Assembly (NCBI GenBank): GCA_027493055.1
Contig: JAPUDO010000119.1
Location: forward strand, 62,001 to 126,000
Direction: 5' to 3'
Source: Niabella sp.
Lineage (GTDB): Bacteria > Bacteroidota > Bacteroidia > Chitinophagales > Chitinophagaceae
DNA: 64,000 nucleotides
The notes beneath the pieces are model-generated. The model was given only the letters and a program-made list of their open reading frames with translations, did not search any database and had not been told where the DNA came from. Both the position numbers and the translations under genes were made by a program. Positions 17,521-51,221 of the stretch are shown piece by piece (the first letter of the stretch is position 1; the number at the start of each line of letters is the position of its first letter).

Positions 17521-17690
17521 TAAGAAGGTTGAAAAGTTGACAGGGAATGTGATAATTAGGTAATGTAGTAATGTGATAATGGACTGAAAGGTTTAGATGT
17601 TTGTACAGAGTATTTAGACAGAAGGAAGGTTGAATCTGAAACCAGTATCCAGCAACCAGCAACCAGTATAATTTAACAAATACTTCTGCA
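17521..17690. repeat. intergenic degenerate word repeats after addB
   Basis: Starting at the addB stop, the gap holds AAGGTTGAAAAGTTGACAGG, several copies of a GTAATGTGATAAT word, AAGGTTGAATCTGAAA and CCAGTATCCAGCAACCAGCA (17643). The first and last words recur in the accA-dapA gap. No gene is seen. The remaining bases up to 17732 probably hold the promoter of the next gene (TAATTTTAG near 17721 is a near match to TAnnTTTG). Confidence 0.5.
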
Positions 17691-20305: not shown

Positions 20306-21562
20306 TTATATCAGCCCAGCCAGCTCCAGGCTCTTCTTCCTGATCTTTCGCTCTTCCACGCTTTCCAGGATGGCATCAGGCTCAAGAATCAGTGAAGTAC
20401 CATTCTCCTTCCACCAGGTACTGTTTTTCAGTTTCTTTAAAGCAATCACGCCCGACAGGTATTTCCGGTCTTCCTGGGCATGCCACTGCTCTATCCATTC
20501 AAAATCTTCCTTAGAAATATTTTTAATATCCCTGAAGCTGATATACACCCTTAAAAAAATATCTTCATTCAGCTGGTTAGGCTCATGGTGATACAGTTTT
20601 TTGTATTCGTACTTATAGCCATAGCGCAATGCAGATAAATCACTCAATACAGCTGATGCTGTTGGGAAGCTTCCTGCACCTTTACCATAAAAGAACTGCT
20701 GGTCAGCAAATCCGCTTTCAATCACCACACCATTATATTCATTTTTTACAAAAGACAGCGGACTATCAGCAGACACAAACTGGGGTAAAACAAAAGCTGC
20801 TACCCCACCGTCCACTAATTTTTTAGCCTGGGCCACTAACCGTATCTGCTGCCCACGGGCTTTAGCCACTGCTGCATCTGATTGATGGATATTCTGGATA
20901 CCGGTAAATAAGATGTTGTTGGGCTCTGTAACAATACCATAAGCATGACAAAGAAAAATAGTCCATTTATTCAGGGCATCAAATCCTTCCACATCCAGCG
21001 TAGGGTTACTTTCTGCAAAGCCCAGTTGTTGCGCCAGCAATAACGCTTCCCTGAAGTTGAGATTATCATCAAACATCTTTGTCAGGATAAAATTGGTGCT
21101 ACCATTGATAATAGCCCTGATACTATGTAAAAGGTCATTATCGTAGTATTCTTCCAGGTTCCTGATTGCAGGTATGGAAGCGCAGGCGGAAGACTCATAC
21201 AAAAAGGAACGGCCTGTTTCCTGCTGCAGGTCTAACAGTTCCTGTAAATGCTCCGCTATCATTTTTTTGCTGGAGCTTACCACTTCCTTTTTATTTTCCA
21301 GGGCCGTTTTCACAATTTCAAATGCTGCTGCCGAATCATCAATCACTTCAACAATTACATTAATTTCCTTATCCTCCAGCAGCTCATTCTTGTCTGTTGT
21401 AAACAAGGCGGCCGGCGCATTCCTCTTTTTAGCAGGATGTTTAATACACACTTTCCTGATAGTGGCATTTAATGAAGGCGTTTGCTCCAGCACTTTGTAA
21501 AGCCCCTCGCCTACTACACCAAACCCAAACATGCCTATCACTAATTTTCTGTGTTTGCTCAT
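20306..21562 (-). CDS. hom: homoserine dehydrogenase
   Basis: It reduces aspartate semialdehyde to homoserine, the shared precursor of methionine and threonine. The 418-residue protein is the stand-alone form, not fused to aspartate kinase. It starts with the Rossmann motif GMFGFGVVGEGLYKVL (10-25), then VVSSSKKMIAEH, YESSACASIPAIRNLEE and INGSTNFILTKM of the catalytic domain with LDVEGFDALNKWTI. The last 80 residues (EDIFLRVYISFRDIKNISK) look like a degenerate ACT-like regulatory domain. It is on the same strand as metX and metY, 340 bases downstream of metX, so read-through from the SAM riboswitch-controlled promoter is possible but not certain. Confidence 0.92.
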   Translation of the reverse strand: MSKHRKLVIGMFGFGVVGEGLYKVLEQTPSLNATIRKVCIKHPAKKRNAPAALFTTDKNELLEDKEINVIVEVIDDSAAAFEIVKTALENKKEVVSSSKKMIAEHLQELLDLQQETGRSFLYESSACASIPAIRNLEEYYDNDLLHSIRAIINGSTNFILTKMFDDNLNFREALLLAQQLGFAESNPTLDVEGFDALNKWTIFLCHAYGIVTEPNNILFTGIQNIHQSDAAVAKARGQQIRLVAQAKKLVDGGVAAFVLPQFVSADSPLSFVKNEYNGVVIESGFADQQFFYGKGAGSFPTASAVLSDLSALRYGYKYEYKKLYHHEPNQLNEDIFLRVYISFRDIKNISKEDFEWIEQWHAQEDRKYLSGVIALKKLKNSTWWKENGTSLILEPDAILESVEERKIRKKSLELAGLI

Positions 21563-21902
21563 TTATTACGAATTGTTTATTATTAATTTTTAATTCACAA
21601 CTGTCAGCACAATGTACGACATACGGTATACGATGTAAAACAAAAGCTAAAAGCCAAAAGCTTTAAGCCTTATGCTTTCGGCTTATTACCCATTACCACT
21701 GAACATTGATGATCGCGTATTGAATATTCCTGCCCGAATGATGGGCCAGGCGGGGATTATGAACATTCAACAATCCCCGCCTGACCGGACGTCCGCCCGT
21801 GCCGGTACGGACGGGGGCAGGAATACTCAATTTTCAAATAGTCATTGATAACATCAACCGCTTAACAACTATTAATACGCCCTACTTACTATTCCCTACT
21901 CT
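21563..21902. repeat. 340-base repeat-filled gap between metX and hom
   Basis: No gene is seen. The gap contains an ACATACGGTATACGATGT word (21619) related to 464; the AAAAGCTTTAAGCCTTATGC word (21658); a large nested inverted repeat at 21719-21832; and a CTACTTACTATTCCCTACTC-type word (21882) next to the metX stop, related to CTACTCACCATTCACTAC at 33522. Inside the large inverted repeat are a perfect 12-bp stem, CAGGCGGGGATT (21747-21758) with AATCCCCGCCTG (21772-21783), and a GC-rich GTCCGCCCGTGCC/GGTACGGACGGG hairpin, all framed by ATTGAATATTCCTGCC and GGCAGGAATACTCAAT. Such structures could end transcription before hom. Confidence 0.55.
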
Positions 21903-22937
21903 CTATTCACTACTTACCACTCCCTGTTCCAAAAAACTCTTAATGGCATCCGTTAATTGTTCAAATTCCAGTAAAAAGCCATCGTGCCCGTAATCAGACA
22001 GTATCAGCTTAACATGCGCATCAGGGATATTACCAGCAATAAACTCCTGCTCATAAGGCGGGAATAAAATATCGCCTTCCATGCTTAAAGCAAGGGTTTT
22101 AGCCTTAATAGTATTTAATGCCTGAACCACTCCGCCTCTTCCCCTTCCCAGGTTATGCGAATCCATACTTTTGGTAAGGGCATAATAGCTAAACGCATTA
22201 AAACGTGCCGAAAGTTTCGAGCCCTGGTAACGTTGATAGCTTTCGCTTTTAAAGCCTTCAATAAGGTCATCAGTAGCTTCCGACTGGGTTTTATTATAAG
22301 CCATATCCGTTCTGTAAGAAAGCAGCGCGATGCTCCTTGCTACTTCCAGACCTTTGCGTCCTGCATCAACCGTTTTATTGAGCCAGGTAGCATCAGCTTC
22401 AATGGCCAGCCTTTGCGAAGCATTAAAAGCCTTGCCCCAGGGCGAATGCATAGCATTGGTAGCTATCGGGAAAATATATTCAAACAGATCAGGAGCCTGC
22501 ACAGCCCACTCCATTAATTGTTGTCCGCCGGTACTACCACCAATACCTATCCTGATTTTTGATATGCCCAGGCTTGCCTGCAACAAACGATAAGCATGCA
22601 CCATATCCCTTATCGTAAAAAAAGGAAAGTCGTGATAATAAGAATTTCCTGTTTGGGGATTTACATCCAAAGGGCTGATGCTTCCATAACAACTGCCAGG
22701 CATATTTACACAAATAATAAAGTGCCGCTCAGGATCAAATACCTTTCCGGCGCCTATCATTTCGGGCCACCACTCATGCGGGCAACTGTTCGCTGTGAGT
22801 GCATGGAATATCCAAACTACATTATCCCGTGCATTATTCAACGCTCCATACGTAGTATATGCCAGGTGCAGATTATGTAAAACCGCTCCGCTCTCCAAAG
22901 TAAACGGCGCTGTGTACCTAAAAAACTCTTGATTCAT
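21903..22937 (-). CDS. metX: homoserine O-acetyltransferase
   Basis: It transfers an acetyl group from acetyl-CoA to homoserine, activating it for sulfhydrylation by MetY. This is an alpha/beta hydrolase of 344 residues, the usual length. The entrance motif FHALTANSCPHEWWPEMIG (45-62) and GSCYGSISP fit the family; the nucleophile elbow GIGGSTGGQQ carries Ser135; MEGDILFPP carries the acid and DYGHDGFL the histidine. Its start lies five bases after the metY stop, so the two are translated from one message under the SAM riboswitch. The gene ends next to short degenerate repeats. Confidence 0.95.
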   Translation of the reverse strand: MNQEFFRYTAPFTLESGAVLHNLHLAYTTYGALNNARDNVVWIFHALTANSCPHEWWPEMIGAGKVFDPERHFIICVNMPGSCYGSISPLDVNPQTGNSYYHDFPFFTIRDMVHAYRLLQASLGISKIRIGIGGSTGGQQLMEWAVQAPDLFEYIFPIATNAMHSPWGKAFNASQRLAIEADATWLNKTVDAGRKGLEVARSIALLSYRTDMAYNKTQSEATDDLIEGFKSESYQRYQGSKLSARFNAFSYYALTKSMDSHNLGRGRGGVVQALNTIKAKTLALSMEGDILFPPYEQEFIAGNIPDAHVKLILSDYGHDGFLLEFEQLTDAIKSFLEQGVVSSE

Positions 22938-24360: not shown

Positions 24361-24399
24361 GCATTTATTTTAATAAATCTTTTAAATTGAAACTTCCGG

Positions 24400-24511
24400 C
24401 TTATCTTTCTACGTTTATGAACGTAGTAGGAATTGGCACCTTGTTTCCCTAATAAAAGAAACAGGTTGCCAAGGCTTCACAGGGCCCATACCCTCTGCCT
24501 TTCTTGATAAG
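24400..24511 (-). promoter_or_regulatory. SAM-I (S-box) riboswitch
   Basis: Read on the minus strand, the P1 stem CTTATC (24511-24506) pairs with GATAAG (24405-24400). Conserved core blocks follow in the right order: AAGAAAGGCAGAGGGTATGG, CCCTGTGAAGCC, TTGGCAACC, then GGTGCCAATTCC and a short variable hairpin CTACGTT...AACGTAG. These are the hallmark blocks of the S-box aptamer that binds S-adenosylmethionine. An intrinsic terminator and metY-metX follow, which is the expected context, so high SAM should switch the methionine genes off. Confidence 0.93.
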
Positions 24512-24548
24512 TATATAAAAGAGCTGCTGCCTGAACGCAGACAGAGCG

Positions 24549-45196: not shown

Positions 45197-45254
45197 GGTA
45201 CGAAATTAGAGATTAAGCCTGATATGTTTACAAGTTGACAGATTGCAGGAACTT

Positions 45255-45305
45255 CCGGCCCCGGACTTCATACCTCCGACCTCGGACTTCCGGACTTCAG
45301 ACTTA
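45255..45305. repeat. GGACTTC word repeat
   Basis: Four degenerate copies of a CCGGACTTC unit (CCCCGGACTTC, CTCCGACCTC, CGGACTTCCGGACTTC) fill the leader of the NUDIX gene. In reverse they read GAAGTCCGGAAGTCCG, the same unit that stands in tandem inside mutS at 50985-51015. Confidence 0.65.
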
Positions 45306-45323
45306 TATCAAAAAAGACCAGCT

Positions 45324-48336: not shown

Positions 48337-48501
48337 ATAAAACGGCTTTTTATTTAAAACGGGGAAATCAGACGCATCGCAACATACACACTAAAAAAAT
48401 TTTACACCTGTATTTTTTACGAAGACAGTTTAAAGCGTTCGGCACCGGATTTTTATATATGATCTGCGGATGATAATTGAAAAGACAAACTCATTTTCCA
48501 T

Positions 48502-48515: not shown

Positions 48516-51221
48516 ATGTCTAAAGCTAAGAAAGATATTTCAGAAACACCTATGATGCAGCAGCATAAGGCTATTAAACAAAAATATCCTGATGCCCTGC
48601 TGTTGTTCCGCGTGGGCGACTTTTATGAAACCTTTGGGCAGGATGCCGTAATAGCCTCGCAGGTGCTGGGTATTACGCTTACTAAAAGGAATAACGGCGC
48701 AGCCGCCTCTTTGGACCTGGCCGGCTTCCCGCACCATGCTTTGGACACCTATTTGCACAAGCTGGTTAAAGCCGGTTACCGTGTAGCCATCTGCGACCAG
48801 CTGGAAGACCCCAAACTGGCTAAAGGTATTGTAAAAAGAGGGGTTACGGAAATGGTTACGCCCGGTACGGCCATTAATGATAAACTGCTGGAACATAAAA
48901 GCAATAATTTCCTGGCAGGCCTGCACTTTGCAGATGATAATCATTTCGGGCTGGCATTTCTTGATCTTTCTACCGGTGAGTTTTTTATTGCTGAAGGCGA
49001 CAGGGAATACGCCGATAAGCTATTGCAAAGTTTTTCTCCGTCTGAAGTGGTTTTCCAGCGCCACCAGCAAAAAAAGTTCAAAGAGTTTTTTGGCGGCAAA
49101 ATGTATGTGTACACCCTGGACGAATGGATATTTGATGAAAATTATGCCCGGGATACATTGCTGAAGCATTTCCAGGTACATTCTTTAAAAGGCTTTGGTG
49201 TAGAAGAACAAAAAAAAGGGATGACAGCTGCAGGAGCTATCATCCATTATTTAAAAGATACGGAACACCCGAACCTGCAGCATATTACCTCTTTACAAAG
49301 CATCCACCGTAATGATTTTTTATGGATGGACCGTTTCACTATCCGGAACCTGGAACTGATCTACGGCAGCAATGAAGGCAATCCTACCCTTTTAAAAGTG
49401 CTGGATAACACAGCCTCTGCTATGGGTGCAAGGATGCTTAAAAGATGGATATTATTTCCATTGATAGACATCAGCAAAATAAATGAGCGCCTGGAACTGG
49501 TGGAAACACTGATCATAGAAACCGATCTCAGGAATGAACTGGTTCAGGCTATTAAACACTGTGGCGATATTGAAAGGCTGGTAGCCAGGATTCCCACCAG
49601 GAAGATCAACCCCCGTGAAGTGCTGCAGCTGGCCAAAGGCCTGAAACAGGTACAGGTGGTAAAAGAGCGGTGTGTTACGCATGCCAATCCCTACCTGCAA
49701 CGTATCAGTGATGCGCTCAACTCCTGCCCGCTTATTGCCGAAAAGATCTTTAAGGAAATCATTGAGAGCCCTCCGGCCACAACCATTAAAGGCGGTTTTA
49801 TCAATAATGGCATTAATGATGAATTAGATGAACTGCGCGAAATATCACAAAGTGGCAAAGCCTACCTTGCTAAAATGCAGGCAGCAGAAGCAGAGAAAAC
49901 CGGTATCAGCTCTTTAAAAATAGGCTTTAATAATGTATTTGGTTATTACCTTGAAGTAACCAACAGCCATAAAAGCCGGGTGCCTGAAAGCTGGATCCGC
50001 AAGCAAACACTGGCTAATGCGGAACGTTATATCACCCCCGAATTAAAAGAATACGAAGAAAAGATAACAGGCGCTGAAGAAAAGATCTTACAGCTGGAGG
50101 CCCGGTTATATGACCAGTTGCTGAACGACCTGTCCGACTATCTGCAGCCCTTACAAACCAATGGTAATTTATTAGCTATACTGGATTGCCTTTGCTGCTT
50201 TGCGCATAATGCCATCCATTATCAATACAAAAAACCATTATTGCATGATGGTGATGACTGGCAGTTAAAGGAAGCGCGTCACCCGGTTATAGAACGTCAC
50301 CTGCCCGTTGGTGAAAGCTATATCCATAATGATACGGAGCTGAATAAAACCCACCAGCAGATCATTATCCTTACAGGGCCTAACATGAGCGGTAAATCGG
50401 CTTTGCTGAGACAAACGGCCCTGATCACGCTGATGGCGCATATAGGCAGCTTTGTTCCTGCTACCGAAGCCAGGATCTCTTTAACAGATAAGATATTTAC
50501 ACGCGTTGGTGCATCGGATAACCTGAGTGGAGGCGAAAGTACTTTCATGGTGGAGATGAATGAAACCGCAGCCATCATTAACAATATCACGCCTAAAAGT
50601 CTTATACTGTTAGATGAAATAGGACGCGGTACTTCTACCTACGATGGTATTTCAATAGCCTGGAGCATTGTAGAGCATTTGCATCAATCGCCCCATCAGC
50701 CCAAAACATTATTTGCCACACACTATCACGAGCTGAATGAGCTGGAGGAAAAATTTGACCGGATCAAAAACTACCATATTACCAATAAAGAGGCAGGGAA
50801 TAAGATCATTTTCCTCCGTAAGCTGGCCCGTGGGGGCAGCACACACAGCTTTGGTATTCATGTAGCAAAAATGGCAGGTATGCCAGCGTCTTTAATTAAA
50901 CGCGCTAACGAAATTTTAGAACAGCTGGAAACACAGCATGTGGATGAGGACGGAAGTTGGAGGTCTGAAGACGGAAGTAGAGAAAAGTCCGGAAGTCCGG
51001 AAGTCCGGAAGTCCGAAAGCGAGACGTTCGGAAGATATTTGACAGATCTTTCCGAAAAAGTGAAGGACCTTAATGCTCCGCAGTTCCAGCTCTCTATTTT
51101 TGATGCGCACAGCCAGACCTTTGACGAAATACGCCGGCTGCTTGCTGATATTGATATCAACCGGTTAACGCCTGTTGAAGCGCTGCTGAAACTACAGGAG
51201 ATCAAAGGAATGGTGAAATAG
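48516..51221 (+). CDS. mutS: DNA mismatch repair protein MutS
   Basis: MutS recognises mismatches and, with MutL, starts repair. From the ATG at 48516 the protein has 901 residues. PMMQQHKAIKQKYPDALLLF and RVGDFYETFGQDA hold the mismatch-wedge Phe-x-Glu. Later come FGYYLEVTNSHK, the Walker A loop TGPNMSGKSALLRQ, LSGGESTFMVEM, LILLDEIGRGTSTYDG (Walker B) and FATHYHELNEL. Between the ATPase end (EILEQLE) and the C-terminal LTPVEALLKLQEIKGM there is a stretch of about 28 residues (EDGSWRSEDG to KSESETF) coded by a tandem repeat, followed by APQFQLSIFDA, a likely sliding-clamp motif. The promoter is close to the ATG. Confidence 0.96.
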   Translation: MSKAKKDISETPMMQQHKAIKQKYPDALLLFRVGDFYETFGQDAVIASQVLGITLTKRNNGAAASLDLAGFPHHALDTYLHKLVKAGYRVAICDQLEDPKLAKGIVKRGVTEMVTPGTAINDKLLEHKSNNFLAGLHFADDNHFGLAFLDLSTGEFFIAEGDREYADKLLQSFSPSEVVFQRHQQKKFKEFFGGKMYVYTLDEWIFDENYARDTLLKHFQVHSLKGFGVEEQKKGMTAAGAIIHYLKDTEHPNLQHITSLQSIHRNDFLWMDRFTIRNLELIYGSNEGNPTLLKVLDNTASAMGARMLKRWILFPLIDISKINERLELVETLIIETDLRNELVQAIKHCGDIERLVARIPTRKINPREVLQLAKGLKQVQVVKERCVTHANPYLQRISDALNSCPLIAEKIFKEIIESPPATTIKGGFINNGINDELDELREISQSGKAYLAKMQAAEAEKTGISSLKIGFNNVFGYYLEVTNSHKSRVPESWIRKQTLANAERYITPELKEYEEKITGAEEKILQLEARLYDQLLNDLSDYLQPLQTNGNLLAILDCLCCFAHNAIHYQYKKPLLHDGDDWQLKEARHPVIERHLPVGESYIHNDTELNKTHQQIIILTGPNMSGKSALLRQTALITLMAHIGSFVPATEARISLTDKIFTRVGASDNLSGGESTFMVEMNETAAIINNITPKSLILLDEIGRGTSTYDGISIAWSIVEHLHQSPHQPKTLFATHYHELNELEEKFDRIKNYHITNKEAGNKIIFLRKLARGGSTHSFGIHVAKMAGMPASLIKRANEILEQLETQHVDEDGSWRSEDGSREKSGSPEVRKSESETFGRYLTDLSEKVKDLNAPQFQLSIFDAHSQTFDEIRRLLADIDINRLTPVEALLKLQEIKGMVK
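50985..51015 (+). repeat. tandem octamer repeat inside mutS
   Basis: The unit AAGTCCGG occurs at 50985-50992, 50993-51000 and 51001-51008, with a fourth partial copy at 51009-51015. Degenerate copies (GACGGAAGTTGG, GACGGAAGTAG) precede it from 50949. Eight is not a multiple of three, so the copies are read in three different frames (KSG, SPE, VRKS), and a change of one unit would shift the frame at about residue 824-834. Confidence 0.85.

Follow-up and report, generated by a model that had tools for sequence, protein, structure and literature searches.

Rickettsia palindromic elements are small dispersed repeats inserted in frame in conserved proteins. A tandem repeat in a mismatch-repair gene has been described in Salmonella mutL, where three copies of a 6-bp unit lie in the lid over the ATP pocket and slippage between them has been proposed to act as a switch (PMC2955026). 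Repeat switches in mutL or mutS have been proposed for over 100 species, from a screen limited to units of 1-6 nt (PMC2955026). The 23S rRNA IVS of Coxiella and Leptospira carries a four-helix-bundle ORF, S23p, in the loop of a stem formed by its inverted ends, and the Coxiella IVS, 428 nt long, has been called a selfish element of unclear origin (PMC4990558). Finally, heptameric repeats are described in cyanobacteria, Xanthomonas, Beggiatoaceae and some Bacteroidetes as mostly intergenic 7-bp tandem arrays that are patchily distributed and at times form inverted pairs, a few of them lying inside genes (PMC4679880, PMC4692102).

In the window, by which we mean the whole 64,000-nt stretch of Niabella sp. 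DNA analysed, a tandem octamer lies within mutS, in a region with the following features.

48516..51221, + strand: mutS, 901 aa, with MutS domains I-V at residues 11-805 (ORF list and Pfam).
50985..51019, + strand: octamer array, (AAGTCCGG)x4.4, 96% match, in frame in mutS (TRF and sequence).
50950..51042, + strand: wider degenerate stretch of the same octamer family, perhaps the whole inserted array (sequence and alignment with six relatives; edges set by eye, the model match within it being 50984-51034).
51081..51101, + strand: QFQLSIF, a putative beta-clamp motif, residues 856-862 (by analogy with motifs named in PMC8034640).
51102..51218, + strand: C-terminal region of MutS, conserved in the relatives shown.

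An alternative TTG start at 48477 would give a product of 914 aa. The first-pass annotation had described an octamer tandem repeat running in frame from codon 824 of mutS and followed by QFQLSIF and the conserved C-terminus, and both the repeat (period 8 and 4.4 copies by TRF; sequence AAGTCCGGAAGTCCGGAAGTCCGGAAGTCCGAAAG) and its position relative to these downstream features were confirmed. Since Pfam ends domain V at residue 805, the array lies in the C-terminal linker, upstream of QFQLSIF. The array is far beyond chance: when mutS was shuffled among synonymous codons and runs with any period from 4 to 12 and at most 1 mismatch were allowed, none of 2000 shuffles reached the observed 27-nt period-8 run (≤1 mismatch), the shuffle maximum being 15. 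The octamer is open in all frames on both strands, encoding KSGSPEVR on one strand and GLPDFRTS on the other. The mutS copy has one arm and is not palindromic, scoring 49.2 bits with the model on one strand and 6.4 bits on the other, and its fold was not clearly better than that of shuffled sequences (z -1.24). The octamer arrays differ from the Rickettsia elements in sequence and build, the mutS copy being one-armed; they differ from the mutL repeat in that the mutS unit is 8 bp long, lies in a variable linker and belongs to a genome-wide family, and the mutS array is known here from one genome.

As in a phase-variable contingency locus, the unit of 8, which is not a multiple of three, lies inside an ORF. 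The expectation that one unit more or less would cut off the clamp motif and the C-terminus was borne out in silico: loss of one or two units gave products of 849 and 836 aa, gain of one or two units gave products of 844 and 857 aa, and each of these predicted products stopped after domain V without the clamp motif. Loss or gain of three units (893 and 909 aa) would keep the frame. Of the 54 arrays found in the part of the genome that was sampled, this one ranks second in period-8 purity (see below), which makes slippage plausible. Repair may survive the loss of the clamp motif, to judge by analogy with Caulobacter MutS, in which changing the motif to alanines took the protein off the replisome and gave mutation rates similar to those of the intact protein, both being overexpressed (PMC8034640). 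The motif does have some effect, since the same study reports trouble in stably combining this mutant with a defect in proofreading; it also cites the corresponding B. subtilis MutS mutant as no longer co-localising with the replisome.

The octamer repeat is not special to mutS. The 16-mer AAGTCCGGAAGTCCGG had 8 matches in the genome, two of them within the mutS array, and none in a reversed-pattern control, and CGGAAGTCCGGAAGTC with ≤2 mismatches had 41 matches (some overlapping within one array) compared with 6 in the control. A Markov model trained on 24 intergenic copies, with copies inside ORFs left out, was used to scan 1.71 Mb of the genome and found 54 array segments at 18 bits against 12 in the reversed control, and 50 against 3 at 20 bits; at ≤14 bits the control exceeded the matches, so that the scan is clean at high cut-offs only. 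A further array of this family lies in the window.

45251..45309, - strand: second array of the octamer family, intergenic (repeat search and model scan).

By ORF calls, 48 of the 54 segments were intergenic and 6 overlapped ORFs, one of the six lying at a doubtful N-terminus and being counted as intergenic (giving 49); the intergenic share is not an independent result because the training copies were intergenic and, coming mostly from the scanned contigs, mostly among the 54. The five in-gene segments fall in three genes: one in mutS, two inverted arms in ispG (Pfam GcpE) and two inverted arms in an AAA_28 ATPase gene that we take to be NadR-like. The same octamer repeat is thus found in frame in several unrelated conserved genes, in the manner of Rickettsia palindromic elements. 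The ispG and NadR-like copies carry both arms, unlike the mutS copy; their folds were likewise not clearly better than those of shuffles (z -1.44 for ispG and -0.54 for NadR-like). When the 54 segments were ranked by period-8 purity, NadR-like came 1, mutS 2, an intergenic segment 3 and ispG 4, and the other two in-gene segments were not pure (period-8 runs of 13 and 9). Overall, period-8 purity was higher in the in-gene arrays than in the intergenic arrays (5 vs 49, p=0.0015), as would be expected if selection for frame purges 1-bp indels; it also means that the arrays may slip. An ORF, L190:1299-2384 (- strand), presumably agmatine-deiminase-like, has a predicted N-terminus, RTSGLPDIPTSGL, that is read from an octamer array; its start codon is uncertain, as is its standing as a fourth in-gene case.

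These arrays lie against a strong 7-bp background. Intergenic DNA of this genome showed excess identity at lag 7 (z=17.6), lag 14 (z=11.2) and lag 21 (z 6.7), and heptamer words are many (e.g. GTACGAT, CTGTCAT, ACCAGTA, TGAAAGC). At lag 7, four of the five relatives sampled (G003, G008, G012 and G002) had z of at most 0 and the sister species G001 had 1.5. At lag 21, G001 and G012 had z of 4.3 and 4.2; their assemblies have broken genes, and coding DNA leaks into the intergenic set. Within the window, intergenic degenerate arrays of 7-8 and 14 bp (AACCAGC, CCCTACTTACTATT, AAAAGCT) at 17546-17666 and 21562-21925 are part of this heptamer background.

Of 58 relatives searched, one, the sister species G001, clearly shares the octamer family as judged by matches to CGGAAGTCCGGAAGTC with ≤2 mismatches (15, control 1); the other 57 were near control level. 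The MutS linkers of relatives vary in length and sequence, and the repeat is not kept at the same mutS site, as it might be in a contingency locus. In a survey of 111 loci, 76 of which gave readable MutS linkers (some genomes being counted twice), the longest run of period 7 or 8 was that of the window (28). Runs of 13-18, built from other words or a related octamer, were seen in the linkers of L156, L083, L031, L077 and L026; the weaker of these are only suggestive because, by the same measure, the 2.2 kb upstream of the linker reaches runs of 8-13 in the 14 mutS genes listed. When relatives' linkers were scored with the model, G003 reached 18.0 bits and G001 10.3, with G012, G002, G008 and G013 at 3.7-7.6, and it is possible from this resemblance that the G003 and G001 mutS linkers are decayed copies of the array. 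No empty site with near-identical flanks was found for mutS among the nearest relatives, because their linkers are too diverged for the ends of an insertion to be placed.

The two other in-gene inserts could be compared among relatives. G001 and G002 carry the NadR-like insert and G012 lacks it (no simple match was obtained in nine other genomes), and the ispG insert was present in G001 and absent in the 11 other genomes compared. Arrays thus seem to enter protein linkers repeatedly, and mutS is not singled out. The ispG frame of G001 is broken, which we did not count as evidence for switching because the assemblies of G001, G002 and G012 break several genes. By eye, the ispG linker (L279; orthologues L280-L291) carries other repeats in G004, G007 and G012, and it may be an insertion hot spot.

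Inverted arrays of the mutS octamer also flank a gene of the four-helix-bundle family PF05635 (23S_rRNA_IVP) at C42:5906-6223 of this genome, and another, with an internal stop, at C1:1707002-1707244 of G001. The 20 PF05635 matches of this genome fall in 18 genes, of which two (on C119 and C31) are below the Pfam cut-off. Inverted flanks reached the 95th percentile of 93 control ORFs, each bordered by ≥120 bp of non-coding DNA on either side, in 17 of the 17 PF05635 genes with full flanks (MWU p=6e-11); an earlier control of 274 ORFs had included three of the genome's own PF05635 genes, which were taken out for the 93-ORF comparison. The best period among those tested (5-10) was 7 or 8 in both arms at 18/18 PF05635 genes compared with 17/89 controls. 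The arms lie ≤153 bp from the Pfam match, and their repeat words vary from copy to copy. Five of the eight PF05635 genes taken from G003 and G007 also passed the control's 95th percentile for inverted flanks. Across 29 arms from this genome, its relatives and plasmids (see below), the 5' arm had more G than C on the gene's strand in 25, less in 1 and equal amounts in 3, a count that includes L320 and L321, both below the control cut-off, and omits 11 genes (five from this genome, L314 with its short flank, L326, and the plasmid loci L335, L338, L339 and L344). By eye, two PF13366 (PDDEXK_3) genes of this genome (C46:125674-126084 and C119:18530-18919), presumably of the GxxExxY type, also lie between short inverted repeats that look array-like; among PF13366 genes found with phmmer, inverted flanks were above control in 2/3, too few to claim a second cargo.

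When 72,556 plasmids were searched with tblastn, 25 records proved to carry a PF05635-like gene. Of these, 14, each with at least 88% query coverage, were taken (13 cyanobacterial and 1 gemmatimonad); the remainder, one near duplicate (H2) and ten partial matches, were set aside. Inverted flanks exceeded the maximum of 200 shuffles in 10 of the 14 elements and not in the other 4, and in all ten the best period of the arm was 7 or 8 and the arms lay ≤178 bp from the gene. The median inverted-flank score of the 14 elements was 40, compared with 15-23 for 18 control genes from two of the plasmids (p = 4e-4). All 13 annotated elements of the 14 adjoin protein genes and are not in 23S rRNA, and the fold of a Nostoc element has a 34-pair stem with the gene in its loop (z -6.9). 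Four-helix-bundle elements lie amid CRISPR genes on three of the cyanobacterial plasmids (L333, L340 and L341), at cas6/cas4 twice and at cas10/cmr3 once.

Five pairs of plasmid sites with and without the element were found: Anabaena 90 vs Dolichospermum (cas6/cas4), Nostoc edaphicum vs Calothrix (ribonucleotide reductase genes), Nostoc C052 vs C057, Calothrix brevissima vs Nostoc carneum, and Picosynechococcus 7003 vs 7002. In four of these the extra block was array-gene-array, 442-518 bp long, whose arrays either reach its ends or stop no more than about 20 nt short of them, so that arrays and gene are present or absent together as one block. The corresponding empty sites carry 11-42 bp of other sequence in its place, and for this reason the insertion cannot be called clean, nor does it show a target duplication; in the fifth pair (Anabaena 90), the empty site carries an unrelated repeat instead. 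Flanking arrays do not prove that the PF05635 gene moves them.

Like the 23S rRNA IVS, these elements have a four-helix-bundle ORF between inverted ends, but they lie between protein-coding genes, their stems are made of 7-8 bp tandem repeats whose word varies by copy, and some arrays stand alone. The mutS copy sits in mutS rather than 23S rRNA and has a single arm and no four-helix-bundle ORF, whereas the C42 element with the same octamer has an ORF between inverted ends. The accounts of heptameric repeats consulted in PMC4679880 and PMC4692102 make no link to four-helix-bundle genes, whereas the arrays here are the ends of such elements, and an open-access literature search found no paper joining the two.

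We favour, with a probability of about two in three, the explanation that the mutS array is a solo, gene-less copy of the terminal repeats of a PF05635 element that entered a variable linker in an ancestor and later slipped and mutated. The first-pass annotation had instead read the array as an on/off switch of mismatch repair. In its evolved form, octamer slippage would toggle repair through the clamp-binding C-terminus, and the array would be kept since occasional mutators are useful. The frame effects of unit changes and the plausibility of slippage stand, the array is second in period-8 purity, array-like runs occur in a few other MutS linkers, and repeats in mutL and mutS have been proposed as switches before (PMC2955026). 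However, the array belongs to a genome-wide family whose members in genes unrelated to mutability are of like purity (NadR-like at rank 1, ispG at rank 4), it is not conserved among relatives, whose linkers differ in length and sequence, and in Caulobacter, with MutS expressed as in that study, repair did not depend on the clamp motif (PMC8034640). A tolerated insertion is more likely than a purpose-built mutation switch, which we regard as improbable; the switch idea survives as an accident rather than an evolved device.

Slippage alone could have made the mutS array, with similar words elsewhere arising independently in a genome prone to 7-8 bp slippage where DNA is under weak constraint. 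The strong intergenic periodicity of this genome at lags 7 and 14, which the five relatives sampled lack or show weakly, agrees with such a local origin, and published work cited in PMC4679880 proposes slippage at heptamers; since the mutS copy is one-armed and lacks an inverted partner, it could also have grown locally from an AAGTC seed. Set against this, one and the same octamer word turns up in dozens of arrays, in sister-species orthologues and at the ends of PF05635 genes, and plasmid arrays come and go with the gene, which makes local origin unlikely, if less so than an evolved switch. A RAYT (Y1 transposase) might instead have moved the array as a REP-type element, given that the genome has 6 PF01797 matches, one of which, at C76:56314, has high-scoring inverted flanks (37). 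These flanks are by eye of another kind than a 7-8 bp array, and inverted arrays of 7-8 bp were absent at 4/4 other RAYT genes examined, the sixth match being weak and outside the sample, so that a RAYT origin seems very improbable.

Under the favoured explanation, in which the mutS array is a gene-less copy of element ends, a complete element consists of a degenerate 7-8 bp tandem array, a four-helix-bundle gene (PF05635, S23/IVP family) and an inverted array. We infer that an array entered the MutS linker by insertion rather than by local growth, probably in an ancestor common to this species and G003 or G001, although the way in which such arrays may move is also a matter of inference. The array, whose octamer is open in all frames (KSGSPEVR, GLPDFRTS), would then have changed through slippage and point mutations while selection maintained the reading frame. 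The mutS copy would be nearly neutral, and the unit changes that truncate MutS would be an accidental, not an evolved, source of variation.

More broadly, the evidence leaves us evenly divided on whether S23/IVP four-helix-bundle genes are the core of widespread small mobile elements outside rRNA, of which heptamer repeats would be the footprints. Such elements would end in inverted 7-8 bp arrays with their own word per copy and a G-rich arm 5' of the gene; many unexplained heptamers of Bacteroidetes and cyanobacteria would be accounted for, and gene-less arrays would repeatedly invade linkers in frame, including that of mutS. If this is right, a gene-specific story of a mutability switch gives way to a general origin of bacterial heptamer repeats, with a bearing on the nature of orphan S23/four-helix-bundle genes and on the frame-preserving entry of repeats into conserved proteins; in-gene octamer arrays, that of mutS included, may then slip and could yield accidental mutators.

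Rfam was also considered as a source of identity for the arrays, and in six sources no family matched them at gathering score, the sole match being a SAM riboswitch. In the window, SAM riboswitch RF00162 lies at 24398-24513 (- strand), with a score of 88 bits, above the gathering score.
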